A stretch of 30,088 nt of DNA, taken from positions 1 to 30,088 of the IMG/VR virus record IMGVR_UViG_3300047550_004126. One strand, 5' to 3'. The stretch is from a virus. Positions 2,109 through 10,289 of the stretch are shown piece by piece; position 1 is the stretch's first letter; each line of letters starts with the position of its first letter. The translations under genes and the position numbers were made by a program. Below the pieces are notes generated by a model that was not told the origin of the DNA, did no database searches, and saw only the letters and a list, made by a program, of their open reading frames with translations.

Positions 2109-2843
2109 TTAGTCTCCCAACTGTTCTATTATATATTTAATTAATCCATGTCTTTGTATATCATCCCCAGTAAGAAATACTTTAGCAATATCTTTGTGGT
2201 TAAGTTTAGATAAAATCCACTCCATAGTATTTCCTTCATAGTGTGGCAAATCTGTTTGTGTATGATCCCCACAAACTACAACTTTAGAATTTTGTCCAAA
2301 CCTAGTCAAAAACATTTTCAATTGTCTTCGTGTTGCATTTTGAGCTTCGTCCAGAATAATCATTGAATCATGAAATGTTCTTCCACGCATTAATTCTAAT
2401 GGACATATTTCTAATACTTGATCATTTCTTATTGTTTTCATTTTTGTTTTTGTAACAAAATTTCCAATTGCCTCAAGCATAGCAACCATAAATGGCTCTG
2501 TTTTTTCCTTAAGGTCGCCAGGAAAAGCACCTATTTTTTGTCCACATTCGATTAATGGTCTGGCGATAATTATTTTTTCTATTTTCTTTTGAACTAAAAG
2601 TCCAGCAGCAACCCCACAAGCAATAAATGTTTTTCCAGCACCAGCAGGACCAGAACAAATTGTTAATGTGTGTTTTTCAATAGAATCAATATATATTTCT
2701 TGATTTTTTGTTTTTCCTTTTATTTGATTTGTTTTTTCTTCTTCTACTGACTTATCTCTTTCTTCTTTCCAAGAAATCTCCTGCGGTTCTTCTTTATAGT
2801 TAGCTATATCGACCCATGTCTGCTTTTTCTTTTTGGGAGGCAT
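2109..2843 (-). CDS. phoH: PhoH-like P-loop ATPase
   Basis: The protein has 244 residues. The PhoH ATPase domain begins near residue 45, with Walker A GPAGAGKT at about residues 65-72 and a Walker B strand reading MIILDEAQNA in the middle. These are followed by the family's typical QLKMFLTRFG and VVCGDHTQTDLP segments, the latter resembling the helicase superfamily motif III region. The N-terminal 45 residues are highly charged (PPKKKKQ, EERDKSVEEEK) and probably disordered. PhoH is very common in large phages of aquatic bacteria; its biochemical role is unsettled, with RNA-related ATPase or helicase activity proposed. The gene overlaps the 3' end of the upstream glycosyltransferase by 44 nt, an unusually long overlap here. 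An AAGG sequence about 9 nt before the ATG supports this start. Confidence 0.93.
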   Translation of the reverse strand: MPPKKKKQTWVDIANYKEEPQEISWKEERDKSVEEEKTNQIKGKTKNQEIYIDSIEKHTLTICSGPAGAGKTFIACGVAAGLLVQKKIEKIIIARPLIECGQKIGAFPGDLKEKTEPFMVAMLEAIGNFVTKTKMKTIRNDQVLEICPLELMRGRTFHDSMIILDEAQNATRRQLKMFLTRFGQNSKVVVCGDHTQTDLPHYEGNTMEWILSKLNHKDIAKVFLTGDDIQRHGLIKYIIEQLGD

Positions 2844-3933
2844 GTTTAATAACCTTTAAAAAAGTTGACCCCACTTTTTCGTGGGAAAATTCATAGGCAC
2901 GATCTAAAGCAACGGTAGCTTTAGACTTTCTAACATCCTCCATCTCATAACATTCCCTCATTTTTCTTCTTAAATCTTCAATATCTATCGACCACCAATA
3001 TTCAGAACCATGATAAATACCATTTGCTATTCTTTCCTGCCCAAATACTGGCTCTTTCTTGCAATCAACCAACCAACCAACTTTGTCATTTAAATAGTCT
3101 TTATAGCCAGAACAATTCGTGACAATAGGAGTTTTCCCAAAACCCATTGCATCAAATGCTGGTATGCTCCAAGCTTCGCCATAAGAAGCTTGAACAAAAG
3201 CATCACATGAATTATGTAATTGATATATTGCTTTATTAGTTAATCTTTCTTTTATACAAAAAACTCTTGGTATTTTTTTAATAGATAAACCAGATGATAT
3301 AGAGTTGCAATACTTTGAAAAGTCGCTTTCTTCGTCATGATCTGTTTTTACAACTAAACAAACATTCTCATCGGAAGAAAATTCCAAAAAGTATGCTTTT
3401 AAAAGTGCCGTTAAGTTTTTTCTTCTTTTTTGTTCGCCTATAGTATAAAAAATAAAATCACTTGGAGATGTGCTTTGTTTTATTTGATTTAACTTTTCGT
3501 AATTTTCAGTATATATAGAAAAATCTCTAGCGTGAGGAACAACATATGTTGGAACATTAACACCACTTTCTTTACACGATTCAAGCATTTGATTGTTTAT
3601 AACAATACAGCAATCCATATTGTTTAAATGATTTTGCCAACCAGACATTCTAAATGATGTAGTTTCATACGCAAATAATCCGATATTCAATTTAAATTTA
3701 GAATTATATTGCATGTGAACAGGTAGAGTATGTTGTATTACAATATCACAATTGCTAGTTGATTTTTTTTCTAGTTCAAGTATTCTTTTGCTTGGCTTAT
3801 GATCTACTTTATTAAATTTTAATGCTCTGCATACAACATTAACACCAATTGAATCTAAAGATAGTATGTAATCTTCAGCAGCTTGTCCATATCCAGTACC
3901 ATCTCTATAATTACCAATGTAAAGAACTTTCAT
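2800..3933 (-). CDS. Glycosyltransferase, GT4-like
   Basis: The protein has 377 residues and starts at an ATG preceded by AAGGA. It reads as a complete GT-B enzyme: an N-terminal Rossmann start with a glycine-rich loop (MKVLYIGNYRDGTGYGQ), a mid-domain strand (DFIFYTIGEQKRRKN) typical of the GT4 linker region, and a C-terminal donor-binding segment (QASYGEAWSIPAFDAMGFG followed by TPIVTNCSGYKDYL). In the EX7E motif the second acidic residue is Asp, not Glu. It lies between a longer zinc-ribbon-containing GT and phoH, and probably acts with the neighbouring GTs on one glycan. The acceptor is unknown. The C-terminal 44 nt overlap the start of phoH. Confidence 0.85.
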   Translation of the reverse strand: MKVLYIGNYRDGTGYGQAAEDYILSLDSIGVNVVCRALKFNKVDHKPSKRILELEKKSTSNCDIVIQHTLPVHMQYNSKFKLNIGLFAYETTSFRMSGWQNHLNNMDCCIVINNQMLESCKESGVNVPTYVVPHARDFSIYTENYEKLNQIKQSTSPSDFIFYTIGEQKRRKNLTALLKAYFLEFSSDENVCLVVKTDHDEESDFSKYCNSISSGLSIKKIPRVFCIKERLTNKAIYQLHNSCDAFVQASYGEAWSIPAFDAMGFGKTPIVTNCSGYKDYLNDKVGWLVDCKKEPVFGQERIANGIYHGSEYWWSIDIEDLRRKMRECYEMEDVRKSKATVALDRAYEFSHEKVGSTFLKVIKHASQKEKADMGRYS

Positions 3934-3934
3934 G

Positions 3935-5434
3935 CTAATTCCTTATTGATTCATAATAATTATAATTGTTGACAATTTTTTCTACTTCTTTGTATACATC
4001 TTCTTTAGAAGACATATTGTAATTAATTTTTTTTAAAAATCTTGAAAATAAAAGTGAAAAATCATCTTTAAAACAAGAAAGAAGTTTTTTCAAAAAGTCA
4101 ACATTAGAATCATATGAAATATCATTAGATATATGCATGTATTCTTTTGGGGAATTCCAAGTTTTTGAACTTGGAACTGATTGGAAAAGTTTCGCTAATT
4201 TATTTGCAACATTGTCATAATTATATATTTTTTTTGCTAGATCAAGAGTTTTAGTTGCTTTAAATTTTCTTACAGAATCTGGTTGTCTAAAATACTTTAA
4301 GCAAATATTAACAAAATCTTGATTGTCTGGAAGTGCAAACTTTCTGTGCGTGTCTACTTCGTAATACATTCTTTGTACTTTAATTGGAAAACCATCTAAT
4401 TTTCTAACAATATCGCACATTGCACTATAATCTGTGGCACAGACAGGAACGCCACAAGATGCTGCTTCAACTAATGGCATACCAAATCCTTCTGCACACG
4501 CATATTGAACATATATGTCCATTAAATTATACACCATAGACATAGACTCTCTTTTAGCCCCACTACTAGTATTCGGGAATAAAGATGAAGTCTTATTGCA
4601 ATAGTTGCACTTTACAAGTGCCCCATTAAAATTTGAAACAGATACATTAAAACATTCTCTACAACTATATGAAAAATATAGTTTGTTTGATATTTTTGGT
4701 CTTTCGGCTATTAGCTTTGGAATATCCCAACCAACATCTGGATAAGTTGTATGCAGATATAATATTAGTCTAGAAGATAGTTCTGGGGGTGCTTGTTCTA
4801 ATAACATCGAAAAAGCATCAAACAAATCTGGTATGAGCTTTCTTTTTTGATTTCTCATAACAGATCCTATTATTAAAGAATTAGGATCTATACCATTTTT
4901 TTCTTTGAATAATTTTTTATCTTTTGTCATTTTAAATATTTCATCTGCTGCTGGAGAAGCAGAAAATAAAACATTTAATTGGGGATAATTTTGTTTTAAT
5001 ATATCTAATGCCCAATCTGAATATGTAAGTACAGAATCTGACTTTGTTAGTGTATATATCCATTCTGGGTCTAGTGGAATAGCATCAATTGTTGGCATAT
5101 AGACCCAATGGAAATGTTTTTTATACGGAGAATCCCCTATAAAATGATCTACCCAAGGATCTCTAAATGACCAAACTATATCTGGTTTAAAATCCAACAA
5201 TACTTTTTCAAATATTTCATTTCCAAATCTTCCTGTTTTATCATTTTCTTCAGTAAAATAAACACCCCAAGGTATTTTTGAAAGAAGAGCATTTTTTCTT
5301 CCAAAACATGCTATTTCAGCTAACTCGAAATCTCCTTTATCATAAAGTCTACTCATAATCTGATATCCATAATTGGCATATCCAGAATTAATAAATGTAG
5401 CTTCACCACAAAGGAGAATTCGTTTTTTTTGCAT
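3935..5434 (-). CDS. GT4-like glycosyltransferase with inserted zinc ribbon
   Basis: The protein has 499 residues. An N-terminal GT-B domain (GEATFINSGYANYGYQ) is followed by SVMRNQKRKLIPDL, a typical GT4 inter-domain segment near residues 191-204. The donor-site motif EGFGMPLVEAASCG (E315 and E323, a canonical EX7E pair) is intact, so the enzyme is probably active. Between these two parts, at C258/C261 and C276/C279, sits a CxxC...CxxC module that looks like a small zinc ribbon. It may replace a surface loop of the C-terminal domain and is unusual for GT4 enzymes. The last 70 residues are Lys- and Asn-rich and unassigned. The ATG follows an AAGG that overlaps the SSB stop region. The acceptor is unknown. 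Confidence 0.85.
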   Translation of the reverse strand: MQKKRILLCGEATFINSGYANYGYQIMSRLYDKGDFELAEIACFGRKNALLSKIPWGVYFTEENDKTGRFGNEIFEKVLLDFKPDIVWSFRDPWVDHFIGDSPYKKHFHWVYMPTIDAIPLDPEWIYTLTKSDSVLTYSDWALDILKQNYPQLNVLFSASPAADEIFKMTKDKKLFKEKNGIDPNSLIIGSVMRNQKRKLIPDLFDAFSMLLEQAPPELSSRLILYLHTTYPDVGWDIPKLIAERPKISNKLYFSYSCRECFNVSVSNFNGALVKCNYCNKTSSLFPNTSSGAKRESMSMVYNLMDIYVQYACAEGFGMPLVEAASCGVPVCATDYSAMCDIVRKLDGFPIKVQRMYYEVDTHRKFALPDNQDFVNICLKYFRQPDSVRKFKATKTLDLAKKIYNYDNVANKLAKLFQSVPSSKTWNSPKEYMHISNDISYDSNVDFLKKLLSCFKDDFSLLFSRFLKKINYNMSSKEDVYKEVEKIVNNYNYYESIRN

Positions 5435-5444
5435 TATTTATACC

Positions 5445-5825
5445 TTAAAGTATTTCTTCTTCAGATTCATCTTCTGCAAAAGAAGCATATTGTTCTTCTT
5501 GGCTATTTGATTTTTGATCTACATACCAAAATTTTTGAACAATAAATTTAATCTTATGTCTATTTTTGCCAGTCTCTTTATCTGTCCAACTTTCTGTTTT
5601 TGCAGAAGTGTGAACTAATATCCTAGATCCTTTTTTAAAATACTTATAAATAAGGTCTGCTGTTTTCTCCCAAGCTACACAGTCAATAAATGTTACTTCT
5701 GGTTTTTCTTGATTTTTTGATGGATTTCTTACCGAAATACAAAAGTTAACAACAGATTTACCATTGTTTAGCTTAACAATTTCTGGTTCTCTAGTAAGCT
5801 TTCCGAGAAAAGAACAAATATTCAT
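5445..5825 (-). CDS. ssb: Single-stranded DNA-binding protein
   Basis: The protein has 126 residues with a bacterial-type SSB OB-fold: MNICSFLGKLTREPEIVKLN, then SVVNFCISVRNP, then TFIDCVAWEKTADLIYKYFKKG, in the usual order. The C-terminal tail is acidic (EDESEEEIL) but does not end in the DDxPF-type tip used by bacterial SSBs to bind partners, so partner binding may be phage-specific. The gene comes just after the C-terminal half of the DNA polymerase. The AGGAG ribosome binding site overlaps the polymerase TAG stop. It probably coats ssDNA at the phage replication fork alongside the helicase, primase and RecA-like protein encoded upstream in the same operon. Confidence 0.94.
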   Translation of the reverse strand: MNICSFLGKLTREPEIVKLNNGKSVVNFCISVRNPSKNQEKPEVTFIDCVAWEKTADLIYKYFKKGSRILVHTSAKTESWTDKETGKNRHKIKFIVQKFWYVDQKSNSQEEQYASFAEDESEEEIL

Positions 5826-5834
5826 TACATGCTC

Positions 5835-7460
5835 CTAAATTTGAACAACTTTTTTAACTAAAAGAGAATCACTTTTCTTGTCTCGTTCTCCTTGAATCAA
5901 GACAGTATTGCTCTCTTTTAACAAAGAATGAAAATCCTTGTACACATTAGGAAAACAGATAACATCATCTATTTTTCCTGTTGAATCAGATATTGATAAA
6001 AAACACATTCTTGAACCCGGTGTTTTTCCAGCTTTAGTAACTACCTCTTTACATCTTCTTACTTCGACACCAAATACCATATAACCATTTTTCCCATCTA
6101 AATATTCTTTGCATGTAGTATTTGATTCACTTGTATCACAAGAATCAGTTGGATTGTATGTCAAAGAAACACCAAGCAAATCTTTTTCTACCCAAGAAAT
6201 CCAACTTGGTATATCTACTAATGGAGATGGTGGATTTTTAATAACTGAAGCAATGCTTTTTAAAACATCTACTCTTTTGGAAGAAGAACAGCAACCGCCT
6301 TCTTTTTTAATTTTTGCAGAATTTAAAATCATATCGGGAATATTTGTTATTTGAACATTTTCTTTAATCCAAGCTTTTTCTTTTTCTGTTAATTCATTCC
6401 AAGCATTAAATTCAGCAAGGAATAATTTTCTATTTGAACCAAATTTTCTTAGTGCGTTTACAGAAATTAGTTTTTCAATACTTGACTTAGGCATCAAATC
6501 AGAAATCTTAACCACAAATTCTTCCCAAGTTTTTATTTCTTTTCCATAAGTTTGCATACAAGATTTTATTTTTTCAAATTGGGAATGTCCAATTCCTTTC
6601 ACATCGGTTATGCCAAACCATATTGATATTCCATCAGTATAAAAATTACTGTTTAAAACCATTAAGTCTGGAGATTGTACTGATATGTTAAATTTTTTTG
6701 CATCTTCAATAAGATCAGATATTTCAAGCTGACTATCTGCTTTGTCTTTGGCATAAAAAAGCCAGCTAGTAAAAAACTGTACTGGGAAATGACTTTTTAA
6801 ATAAGCAGTATCATATCCAGTTAGACCATAACAACAACTGTGACTGCGGTTGAACGAATATTTTTGACTTTGTTCAATCCAACCGAATATTTCTTCTGCT
6901 TGATCATCACTAACAACTTTTGTTTTTTTAGCACCATCAATAAACATTTTTTTACATTTTGCCATTTCGCTGGAAGACTTTTTTCCCATTGCCTTACGAA
7001 GCATATCTGCTTCTTGAAGAGTAAAACCAGCAATTACTCTAGATAACTCCATCGACTGTTCTTGGAATACTAAAGATCCATATGTTGATTTCAAAACTTC
7101 GTCTACTGCTGGATGATAAGACTCTACAGATTCTTCAAAGTTAGCTCTTCTGCAATAATGTGCAGTCATACTTACACCTTTGTCATCAACTCCTTTTAAT
7201 GCACCGGGTCGTATTAAAGCACCCAAAGCAGTTAAATGTTCTACACTTTTAGGTTTTAATTTTTTTGCCCATTGTTTCCCAAGATCTGATTCTAATTGAA
7301 AAACACCCTTAGTATCACCTCTTGCAAAAATATTCCAAGCATTTTCGCAAGAAGGTAGATTATTAGCATCAACATCTAGTAGAGGCAAAGCACCTTTTGT
7401 CAATGGTTCGCCTATGATTGGAAAACTACAACCGCAAGAAAATTGATATTTTTTTGTCAT
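5835..7460 (-). CDS. dnaE: DNA polymerase III alpha, C-terminal part (fingers to OB domain)
   Basis: The protein has 541 residues. From about residue 38 it aligns with the part of bacterial DnaE that follows the palm: GDTKGVFQLESD, an RPGALKG segment, YGSLVFQEQSMELSRVIAGF, ADMLRKAMGKK, and KYSFNRSHSCCYGLTGYDTA, all landmarks of the fingers region. A helix-hairpin-helix-type region follows, and the last 85 residues form an OB fold (MVFGVEVRRCKEV to VLIQGERD). None of the three catalytic aspartates is here; all lie in the N-terminal half encoded at 8373-10289, so the two proteins must assemble. The first ~30 residues contain C9-x-C11 and do not match canonical DnaE. The stop is TAG, and the SSB ATG lies in the same frame three codons later. 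Confidence 0.92.
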   Translation of the reverse strand: MTKKYQFSCGCSFPIIGEPLTKGALPLLDVDANNLPSCENAWNIFARGDTKGVFQLESDLGKQWAKKLKPKSVEHLTALGALIRPGALKGVDDKGVSMTAHYCRRANFEESVESYHPAVDEVLKSTYGSLVFQEQSMELSRVIAGFTLQEADMLRKAMGKKSSSEMAKCKKMFIDGAKKTKVVSDDQAEEIFGWIEQSQKYSFNRSHSCCYGLTGYDTAYLKSHFPVQFFTSWLFYAKDKADSQLEISDLIEDAKKFNISVQSPDLMVLNSNFYTDGISIWFGITDVKGIGHSQFEKIKSCMQTYGKEIKTWEEFVVKISDLMPKSSIEKLISVNALRKFGSNRKLFLAEFNAWNELTEKEKAWIKENVQITNIPDMILNSAKIKKEGGCCSSSKRVDVLKSIASVIKNPPSPLVDIPSWISWVEKDLLGVSLTYNPTDSCDTSESNTTCKEYLDGKNGYMVFGVEVRRCKEVVTKAGKTPGSRMCFLSISDSTGKIDDVICFPNVYKDFHSLLKESNTVLIQGERDKKSDSLLVKKVVQI

Positions 7461-7464
7461 ATTA

Positions 7465-8103
7465 TTATTTCTTAAATGAGTCTTTAAATTTAACTTTCGG
7501 GTAAATAGATCTGTGTAATTTTAAAAAGTAAGTTATTAAATCTGCTGTTTGCTCTACATCTACTAGTGCATCATGTGCATTAGCTTTAGACATACCAAAA
7601 TGATCTCTGATTGTATCCATTTTCATATTTGGCATATCATCAGAATTTTCAAACCAAAGCAACATTATTTCATCTAAATCAAACATATTTCTTCTGTTGA
7701 AATATGGCTGAACAGAATCTTTTTCAATATAGCCCAATTGACAACATATTCTTTGAAAAATTGGCATATCAAAAAATCTGATATTTTTTCCTGCTGGAAT
7801 AGGAGCCATTATATTGCTTTTACCAGAAGAAAATGTAGATATAAAATCAATAAATTTTCCCCACACTACATCTAGAGTTGGGGCTAAAGATAATTCTTCT
7901 TTTGTTTTTTTGTTAACGGCAAGTGCTGCTTCTTGAAGATTGTTAAAATCTAATGGTTTTACCAAACTGCTAAATACAGCATTGTTTATTGGTTGTAAAG
8001 TTTTTCTATTTATTGCTTTTGCAGCTATTTGTATAACTTCACATTTTTCTATATCTAAAGATCCTGTTTCAAAATCAAATACTATAATTGTATTACTCTT
8101 CAC
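7465..8103 (-). CDS. dnaQ: DnaQ-like 3'-5' exonuclease (DEDDh)
   Basis: The protein has 212 residues. Motif Exo I is VFDFETGSLD (D and E of the DxE pair); Exo II includes GKNIRFFDMPIF; Exo III is NAHDALVDVEQT, with the His and Asp spaced as in the DEDDh group. This is the epsilon/RNase T-type fold that removes mismatched 3' ends. The gene lies between the two halves of the polymerase gene, so it is probably the proofreading subunit. The start is GTG at 8103-8101, with GGAAG 8 nt upstream inside the preceding gene, which it overlaps by 11 nt; no ATG is near. The C-terminal residues after Exo III are Lys-rich (YPKVKFKDSFKK). Confidence 0.9.
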   Translation of the reverse strand: MKSNTIIVFDFETGSLDIEKCEVIQIAAKAINRKTLQPINNAVFSSLVKPLDFNNLQEAALAVNKKTKEELSLAPTLDVVWGKFIDFISTFSSGKSNIMAPIPAGKNIRFFDMPIFQRICCQLGYIEKDSVQPYFNRRNMFDLDEIMLLWFENSDDMPNMKMDTIRDHFGMSKANAHDALVDVEQTADLITYFLKLHRSIYPKVKFKDSFKK

Positions 8104-8380
8104 TATTTTCTTCCTTTATTTTAAGTTCAATTGATCCGTCTATTTTTTGTTCAATTTTTAACTCTAAATCCTCATCTTCTGCTGAATCTAAAATATCTTT
8201 TTCTAAAATTATTTCACCTCCATTTTGTATTGCTATAGCCTTTAATAGTTTATTAGCCTGTTTTGTCAAGTCTTTTTTTAAAGATGCACAATCTGAAAGA
8301 GCATCAAGAAGTCCAGACTGTTGAACGATTAATTTGCTTATTATTGATATTTCAAGAGCATTGTCGTTTATTTCACTCAT
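8093..8380 (-). CDS. Small acidic protein between polymerase halves, unknown
   Basis: The protein has 95 residues and is rich in Glu, Asp, Lys and Ile. The N-terminal 55 residues look helical with leucine-type spacing (ISIISKLIVQQSGLLDALSD, then SLKKDLTKQANKLLKAIA), suggesting a coiled coil or helical bundle. The C-terminal part alternates acidic and hydrophobic residues (LELKIEQKIDG). I recognise no family. It overlaps the 3' end of the polymerase N-half by 8 nt and the exonuclease start by 11 nt, and an AAAGG site precedes the ATG, so it is translated as part of the polymerase set. A role in holding the split polymerase or exonuclease together is possible but is inference only. Confidence 0.7.
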   Translation of the reverse strand: MSEINDNALEISIISKLIVQQSGLLDALSDCASLKKDLTKQANKLLKAIAIQNGGEIILEKDILDSAEDEDLELKIEQKIDGSIELKIKEENSEE

Positions 8381-10289
8381 TTGAATTGCCTTTCAAAAGA
8401 TTTATACAACCCATTATTTTGTCTAAAACAGCAACTCCTAATATATCAAATTTTACCATACCAATTGATTCTAAATCCGACATTTCTAAACCAGCAATCA
8501 TTTGTTTTGTTTTTTTATCAAATGTCATAGGACAAACTTCTGGCAAAGGAAGGTTACTTATAACTATTCCTGCTGCGTGTTTACCTTGACTTCTTTTTGT
8601 TCCTTCTAATCGTATAGCCTGAGAAAACTCTTTAGCCAATTTTCCAGATAAACTTCCGTCTGGTTCTATCTTACAATATTCAGACAGCTTGTCAGGTATA
8701 TTTTCTAGTGCCCATTTTATTATAGATGAATCACCATCTTCATCTTTCATTTCTTGTAACTGTTCAGAAATCTCAGATTCGTCCGGTATATGTTTTGTTA
8801 TATTATTACTTTCGTCAAATGAAAAACCATGCACTCTCAGAACATCTTTCAATGAGCCTCTACCCTGCATTCTACTAAAAGTAATCATTTGACAAACATT
8901 ATTAGTTCCATATTTTGACTTAATATAATCTATCACCTTGTCTCGTTTGGCAATAGGAAAGTCACAATCAATGTCAGGAAGACTAATCCTATTAGGTGCA
9001 TTCCTACCAGCATTGTAGAACCTCTCAAAAACTAAGCCATGTTTAATTGGATCAACTTCAGTTATTCCTAATAGATAAGATATCATGCATCCAGCACCAG
9101 AACCTCTGCCTCTACCTATAATCCAACCTTGTTTTTTTGCCCAGTTACAATAGTCTTGAACAATTAAAAAATATCCAGCCAAACCAGAGTTATCGATAAC
9201 TTCTAGTTCATGCTTAACTCTTTCCGAATATTTTGTATATTCTTCTGTTTTTGGTTTTATGTGACTAAAACGCTTGTGCCAACCTTCTCTGCATAACTGT
9301 CTTAAATAATCAATTTGAGAAAGAGAATTGGGGCAATTAAAGTTTGGTATTGATGGTTGTTTTATGACAGAATAGCTTTCACACATATTGTCAATAAGAG
9401 AGCAATTTTCAATTTCGTCTTTTTCATGAAATTTAGATATTTCTTCTATTCTTGGAAGATAATATTTATTAGATTTAAAAAAAACAGACAGTCCAAAATC
9501 TTCGTTTTTTTCTAACTTTGAATTTACATTCTTTAAAGTTGTTTCCATTGAAGAACATAATAATACTCTTTGATCTGGAGCATCTTCGACATTAACATAA
9601 TGAACATCTGGAGTTGCTATTTTTTTAAATTTAAACTTATTGCAAAGTTCTCTTAGACATTCTGCAATCACTTGTGAGGCAACTAAATTTTCTCTATCAA
9701 ACAATTGTATTTCAACAAAAAAATTATTTTCTCCAAATATGTCTATATATTCTAAACATATTGTTTTAGCTATATTTAACCAGTCTGGATTAAGCATTTC
9801 TTTGATTTCATCATAATCTGTTCTTGAATATGCTTCTTTATGATCATAAAACAAGCTGTTTGCTAAATGTGTTCCTGGATGACCAGAAAATGCTATAAGA
9901 TCAGAACAATTGCCCTTAAAATCAACAATGTTTAGTCTTGGTTTGTAATAAAAATTTTCTAATGAACTAGCCATAGATGACAAATTAATTAAATTTTTCC
10001 ATCCATTTATATTTTTGGCAAGAACACACAGATGAGTTAGTGCTGAATTTTCTTTACTTTGATCACTTGCTGGCTTGCTACATATATAAAACTCACAACC
10101 TATGATTGGTTTTATTCCATTTGAAATACATGCTTTTGAAAAAGCAATTGCACCAGATATTGTTCCATGATCAGTAATAGCACAAGAATTATATCCAAGC
10201 TCTTTGCATTTTTTTGCCAGATGTTCTGGCTTACTAAGTCCATCTAATAAACTATAATGAGTATGACAATGCAATGGTATCCAATTCAT
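8373..10289 (-). CDS. dnaE: DNA polymerase III alpha, N-terminal part (PHP and palm)
   Basis: The protein has 638 residues from the ATG at 10289; a TTG two codons earlier is unlikely because AAGGA sits 8 nt before this ATG. The PHP domain has intact metal ligands: H7-x-H9, ITDHG near 40, E66 in GCEFY, H137 in FSGH, and D228-x-H230 (TPDVHYVN). The palm has GRGRGSGAGCMISYLLGIT and then the catalytic pair in LPDIDCDF (D439, D441), with the third Asp in VKFDILG (D615). The protein ends about 20 residues later, exactly where canonical DnaE would continue into the fingers, which are encoded separately at 5835-7460. The intact PHP site suggests it may retain its own exonuclease activity in addition to the DnaQ-like protein. 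Confidence 0.94.
   Translation of the reverse strand: MNWIPLHCHTHYSLLDGLSKPEHLAKKCKELGYNSCAITDHGTISGAIAFSKACISNGIKPIIGCEFYICSKPASDQSKENSALTHLCVLAKNINGWKNLINLSSMASSLENFYYKPRLNIVDFKGNCSDLIAFSGHPGTHLANSLFYDHKEAYSRTDYDEIKEMLNPDWLNIAKTICLEYIDIFGENNFFVEIQLFDRENLVASQVIAECLRELCNKFKFKKIATPDVHYVNVEDAPDQRVLLCSSMETTLKNVNSKLEKNEDFGLSVFFKSNKYYLPRIEEISKFHEKDEIENCSLIDNMCESYSVIKQPSIPNFNCPNSLSQIDYLRQLCREGWHKRFSHIKPKTEEYTKYSERVKHELEVIDNSGLAGYFLIVQDYCNWAKKQGWIIGRGRGSGAGCMISYLLGITEVDPIKHGLVFERFYNAGRNAPNRISLPDIDCDFPIAKRDKVIDYIKSKYGTNNVCQMITFSRMQGRGSLKDVLRVHGFSFDESNNITKHIPDESEISEQLQEMKDEDGDSSIIKWALENIPDKLSEYCKIEPDGSLSGKLAKEFSQAIRLEGTKRSQGKHAAGIVISNLPLPEVCPMTFDKKTKQMIAGLEMSDLESIGMVKFDILGVAVLDKIMGCINLLKGNSNE

Follow-up and report, generated by a model that had tools for sequence, protein, structure and literature searches.

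A DnaE-type phage polymerase split at the palm-finger boundary and probably working as separate subunits

Replicative polymerases usually have single-chain catalytic cores. What, then, becomes of a polymerase whose catalytic aspartates and fingers are encoded by different genes, and how does a gene come to be broken at such a place? The question is raised by IMGVR_UViG_3300047550_004126, a 30-kb linear virus contig from an uncultured phage; "the window" is the whole stretch of DNA analyzed, 30,088 nucleotides (nt). An operon-like run on its minus strand encodes, in order, the N-half of a DnaE-type polymerase, an acidic open reading frame (ORF) of 95 amino acids (aa), a DnaQ-like exonuclease, the C-half of the polymerase, and a single-stranded DNA-binding protein (SSB). 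We conclude, with a probability of roughly 0.8, that the window encodes an obligately multi-subunit polymerase of the C family that resulted from a single deep fission, likely driven by an endonuclease. A preliminary description, made from the letters alone, had placed a 95-residue acidic ORF and a DnaQ-like exonuclease between the halves, and both the coordinates and the Pfam and PHROG assignments agree:

8373..10289, minus strand: polymerase N-half (PHP, palm, thumb), 638 aa; Pfam, AlphaFold2 model, invariant residues
8967..8975, minus strand: catalytic D439 and D441 (PDIDCDF); invariant in 29 N-halves
8445..8447, minus strand: third catalytic aspartate, D615 (VKFDILG); invariant in 29 N-halves
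8093..8380, minus strand: 95-aa acidic ORF, lineage-specific; under purifying selection, replaced or absent in other lineages
7465..8103, minus strand: DnaQ-like DEDDh exonuclease, GTG start; PF00929, phrog_192
5835..7460, minus strand: polymerase C-half (fingers, HhH, OB), 541 aa; PF17657, PF14579, model
7347..7460, minus strand: N-terminal extension of the C-half with C9-G-C11 and C38; conservation, predicted hairpin
6837..6857, minus strand: SFNRSHS, the region of the cyanobacterial split-intein site, uninterrupted; alignment
5445..5825, minus strand: SSB gene, directly 3' of the C-half; PF00436, E=5e-22

The N-half matches the Pfam families PHP (E=2e-39) and DNA_pol3_alpha (E=2e-76), and its AlphaFold2 model, predicted alone (predicted local distance difference test, pLDDT, 90.9), aligns to positions 4-577 of E. 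coli alpha, with Z scores of 34-42 against solved DnaE chains. D439, D441, and D615 are invariant across the 29 aligned N-halves, and in the window the protein ends 23 residues past D615. The preliminary description had put this end about 20 residues past the last aspartate and the break after the palm, with the PHP domain, the palm, and the three aspartates all in the N-half, and Pfam, the alignment, and the models bear it out. The active PHP motif, HHDHEH[C/H]DH (PMC12926913), is present as H7 H9 D16 H41 E66 H86 H137 D228 H230, each of the nine metal-site residues being found at 90% or more in the N-half alignment. With its PHP domain and a palm carrying three catalytic aspartates, the protein belongs to a C-family, DnaE-type polymerase.

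The C-half matches DNA_pol3_finger (PF17657, E=3e-39) and HHH_6 (PF14579, E=1e-8), and its model alone (AlphaFold2, pLDDT 89.0) aligns to E. coli alpha 572-1073 with a Z score of 21.3; by Pfam and structural alignment, the fingers, HhH, and OB domains of a C-family polymerase are all present. Taken together, the two halves account for E. coli alpha 4-1073 with no interruption, and they part at what is, in the E. coli alpha structure, the palm-finger boundary. All that is absent is the domain following the OB fold, as the C-half ends at E. coli alpha position 1073 of 1160; that domain binds tau in E. coli and is not required for C-family membership. SSB and amidohydrolase folds in the structure match lists were discarded as single-domain matches to the OB fold and the PHP domain.

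A survey of DnaE architecture in relatives, which the preliminary description had recommended, revealed that the split is general to a large, deep clade and not the property of one phage. Relatives were collected with three viral scans, the third seeded with divergent members, and one genome scan. Both halves were found together at 133 loci in the first two viral scans, the window among them, and the polymerase was split at all 133 and fused at 0; the third gave 80 loci, all split, five of which were re-fetches of earlier contigs; and seven contigs binned in bacterial or archaeal metagenome-assembled genomes (MAGs) were likewise all split. In total, about 214 other contigs carry both halves with the same break, and no fused clade member was found in the four scans. 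An artefact of sequencing, assembly, or cloning, such as the rearrangement that the preliminary description had named as a threat to its view, is rejected as having practically no probability, since the same arrangement recurs in these about 214 independent contigs. Polymerases of the clade are 40-86% identical, with the catalytic aspartates and the fingers motifs conserved together, and the ratio of nonsynonymous to synonymous substitution rates (dN/dS) falls at 0.09-0.18 for either half as well as for the exonuclease, and at 0.09-0.45 for the 95-aa ORF. Distances among N-halves and among C-halves correlate with r=0.86, the permutation maximum being 0.32. When 35 split polymerases and 16 fused ones were placed in one tree, inferred by a quick method with no bootstrap and sampled by similarity to split queries, the split ones were set apart by a branch with 100% support in the Shimodaira-Hasegawa-like approximate likelihood ratio test (SH-aLRT). 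No cultured member was found among 50,697 phage records, in which all matches were below 60% identity and the best listed were at about 30-33%, although close neighbors of the window may be missing from that set. Of the PHROG families to which the halves gave hits, none has its end at the palm-finger junction; every such family that reaches the junction spans it. Split viral polymerase contigs were also seen in MAGs from unrelated phyla, namely those of Lokiarchaeota, SAR202, Verrucomicrobiales, and Flavobacteriales (L142-L149), the binning of which probably reflects viral contamination; the C-half of the SAR202 contig (L147) is 100% identical to that of the viral contig L207.

The exonuclease is the constant companion of the two halves. 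It matches RNase_T (PF00929, E=2e-14) and phrog_192, the DNA polymerase exonuclease subunit, and has the DEDDh active site as FDFET, FFDMP, and AHDALVD; the catalytic histidine occurs in all of the aligned set, and the motif patterns in 128 and 130 of 135 exonucleases. At every locus tested, 133/133 and 80/80 and hence 213/213 (the five re-fetched contigs among the 80), its gene was found between the halves, and at 129/133 it is no more than 150 nt away from the C-half. The protein may be a bound proofreader of the polymerase. The 95-aa ORF, by comparison, has no Pfam match and is confined to the subclade of the window, with a distant match in L015. Elsewhere the gap holds, depending on the lineage, an approximately 60-aa "SCC" protein, an approximately 72-aa protein, a uracil-DNA glycosylase, or no further ORF, the exonuclease being alone there in L216 and L228; larger inserts reach more than 6 kb. 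As lineages differ in the gap ORF or do without one, the 95-aa protein can hardly serve as an assembly factor across the clade, nor is it a general part of the system. Among the other gap contents are a protein with RCC1-like (regulator-of-chromosome-condensation-like) repeats (L074, at 4847, 820 aa; L079, at 4814, 834 aa) and, in L020 and L022, several metabolic-looking genes at about 1.2-7.3 kb.

At its new N terminus the C-half carries a feature of its own. It had been described as resuming just before VFQLES; the native palm-finger linker is indeed there, and the chain starts earlier, with about 50 residues ahead of VFQLES that comprise an extension of 20-40 aa and then the linker. The extension has the motif YxFxCGCxF...C and is predicted as a hairpin (pLDDT about 90). 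In the first two scans CGC occurs in 126/133 loci (window included), and C38 is present in all CGC-bearing C-halves and lost in several relatives. The hairpin is present in most members on the window's side of the clade and absent from a large subclade, and in the third scan nearly all loci were without the CGC extension, their C-half starting near the native linker. The extension gave no meaningful match to Pfam or PHROG, no CGC...C-type motif was found in other genes of the fetched loci, and a search for a fourth ligand of C9, C11, and C38 found no Cys or His in either half that is lost jointly with CGC. A metal site shared with Cys21 and His197 of the exonuclease was considered and dropped: CGC-bearing close relatives also lack Cys21, so the correlation of CGC with Cys21 is phylogenetic. 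The hairpin, in the many but not all lineages that have it, probably stabilizes the new N terminus, and it may hold a metal. A CKC variant is found in L163 (4347-6578), binned as Phycisphaerales, whose C-half match exceeds the expected length by about 700 bases, which hints at a further insertion within that C-half.

How, then, might the halves work together? The PHP/palm/thumb protein and the fingers/HhH/OB protein would associate noncovalently across the palm-finger junction, one chain supplying the catalytic aspartates and the other the fingers residues. The assembly would be obligatory because the halves are encoded separately, with no recognizable splicing elements at the break. A complex of polymerase and exonuclease would be produced from the overlapping or abutting cistrons of one operon-like run, in which the N-half and the 95-aa ORF overlap by 8 nt, the 95-aa ORF and the exonuclease overlap by 11 nt, and the exonuclease and the C-half are 4 nt apart. 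This reading is supported by the gap-free complementary models, the conserved catalytic residues, the uniformity of the split, and the precedent of the phage enzymes gp43 and NrdA discussed below. A more specific form, in which palm, fingers, and a bridging exonuclease make an obligate heterotrimer fixed after the ancient fission, with a metal-binding hairpin securing the palm-finger joint in many lineages, is a speculative and rather unlikely extension.

Several points weigh against our interpretation. We infer both the association of the halves and their polymerase activity, and the correlation of distances shows co-inheritance and not contact; the host DnaE could, in principle, carry out the replication; the single origin leans on a quick tree and query-biased sampling; and the endonucleases seen at breaks in relatives may be later arrivals in a gap that was already there. 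It is nevertheless improbable that the halves have ceased to be a polymerase and taken up separate roles, for example as a PHP nuclease and a DNA-binding protein, leaving the host enzyme to replicate the phage. Apart from the inferred activity, the missing domain after the OB fold would fit such a loss, as would our failure to find a beta clamp gene in the 30-kb window, although a fragment of this kind cannot show absence from the whole genome. However, the three aspartates and the fingers motifs are conserved together at 40-86% identity with dN/dS of about 0.1, and both genes stay adjacent in the company of SSB, exonuclease, primase, and helicase genes. Still less credible is a joining of the halves after synthesis, either by trans-splicing of a cryptic split intein or at the RNA level by a split intron. 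Cyanobacterial DnaE is the classic case of trans-splicing, relatives of the window have split inteins at another site in the N-half, and the C-half extension with C38 comes close in length to a C-intein plus a +1 Cys. On the other hand, an N-intein is unlikely because the 16-40 residues after the last catalytic motif (KFDILG) leave no room for it, several relatives have lost C38, and the extension is missing from an entire subclade. Intein motifs at the ends of the halves, which the preliminary description had beforehand singled out as evidence that would speak against it, were sought and not found: none of the window ORFs had a Pfam hit to a Hint or intein family, and C38 is mostly preceded by D, E, S, or Y, and by Asn in only 7/129. 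The window has neither an N-intein at the end of the N-half nor a C-intein at the start of the C-half, and no Rfam intron was found. The YSFNRSHS region is intact in the C-half and the break lies away from the YGFNKSHS region, as the preliminary description had said. Trans-splicing at the break is thus unlikely, and assembly without it, as claimed earlier, is the best-supported reading as far as the absence of splicing elements goes, the association itself being presumed. That such elements can be recognized is clear from a positive control: L102, L113, L130, L267, and L268 have a split intein in the N-half at GPGRG|C...HN|SAAG. In L102 (5130-6490) the N-part matches PF14890 at 2e-9 and an endonuclease-like ORF of 264 aa lies between the intein parts, and in L268 that ORF has shrunk to a remnant, the gene still being split.

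The origin of the break is best read from what sits at it in other lineages. Relative to fused related genes, represented by the outgroup loci L135, L136, and L150-L205, the coding region is divided among separate ORFs, as in other genes in pieces. HNH homing endonuclease genes start at the stop of the N-half in L099 (6268-7332) and L103 (5977-6948), two deep lineages on opposite sides of the split tree. A second break in the N-half, at the catalytic PDIDCDF and without an intein, occurs in L047, L071-L078, and L143 (in L071 at 5421-6500); the insert is a free-standing LAGLIDADG endonuclease in L071, which was sequenced through, and in L047. From its sequence, the L071-type polymerase appears to be in three pieces, and the Cellulophaga phages phiST and phi13:1 are broken near the same place as its second break. 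No endonuclease gene was found in the gap of the window (ORF list, Pfam, and PHROG). Because L099 and L103 have endonucleases at the break, and endonucleases interrupt the N-half at different sites in other lineages, fission driven by an endonuclease, followed by its loss, is the likeliest origin. The simplest history has a single split at a deep point of this large clade of uncultured phages, most likely starting with the invasion of dnaE by a homing endonuclease gene; the endonuclease would later have been lost or replaced, with the exonuclease gene and varying passengers filling the gap. A serious alternative, to which we give an appreciable though minor chance, is that the exonuclease gene made the split by its own insertion or rearrangement into dnaE and the endonucleases came to the break later. 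The exonuclease is the sole gene always in the gap and is at times alone there. Against this, two deep lineages have endonucleases in this very gap, the polymerase gene has been fractured by endonucleases repeatedly, and L268 keeps its fracture with the endonuclease ORF reduced to a remnant. The choice between endonuclease-driven fission and exonuclease insertion concerns the origin of the split and not the working of the enzyme.

Phage replication enzymes in two pieces have been described. The split halves gp43A and gp43B of Aeromonas phages 25 and 44RR co-purify and polymerize, and the split NrdA of phage Aeh1 is active (PMC2988022); for gp43, too, the same paper warns that an endonuclease may have entered an existing gap. 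These enzymes resemble that of the window in assembling without splicing, as the latter presumably does, and differ in having an endonuclease or an untranslated insert at the break, where the window has normal genes. The gp43 polymerase, moreover, belongs to the B family and is split in few phages, whereas the window encodes a C-family enzyme with another break site, fixed in a large clade. Closer in family are Cellulophaga phages phiST and phi13:1, Rhodococcus phage Peregrin, and Microbacterium phage Neptune, whose C-family polymerases occupy two consecutive ORFs; these are adjacent or overlapping, less than 33% identical to the window, and broken at the PDIDxD motif (Cellulophaga) or between PHP and palm (Peregrin and Neptune) rather than between palm and fingers. 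Cyanobacterial DnaE is encoded by two genes broken at the YGFNKSHS region, and its halves are ligated by a split intein; the window shares the two genes, but has no intein and keeps that region whole. Fractured genes with split inteins carry a free-standing endonuclease between their parts. They are similar to the window in having another gene between the polymerase pieces, although the palm-finger break lacks an intein; the true fractured form is found in the five positive-control loci named above, at the other site of the polymerase gene. Single-chain DnaE (phrog_405; Pol III alpha of E. coli and Taq) has the same domains in the same order in one chain, at approximately 25-33% identity, and the fused phage examples L135 and L136 lack the CGC extension. 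No report of a DnaE split between palm and fingers was found in the literature searched, in which coverage of subscription papers was thin. The polymerase of the window is a gene-in-pieces phage replication enzyme whose break site is new, old, and widespread.

The surroundings are those of a replication locus. The N-half starts with an ATG at 10289, with an alternative TTG six bases upstream, and is preceded by genes that Pfam identifies as NUDIX, PD-(D/E)XK, dNMP kinase, primase, and DnaB-like helicase. Next to the replication genes and on their strand, two ORFs at 2800-5434 are, by sequence, putative glycosyltransferases.

In every clade member found, the two sides of a C-family active site are separate products, which implies that the fission was tolerated and then kept. 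The relatives show apparent stages of the process, from an endonuclease at the break through an endonuclease remnant to a second or third break in the gene, and make it testable how a fission becomes fixed and whether the fingers subunit is exchangeable or regulated independently of the palm. For annotation, searches with full-length DnaE would call such phages fragmentary.

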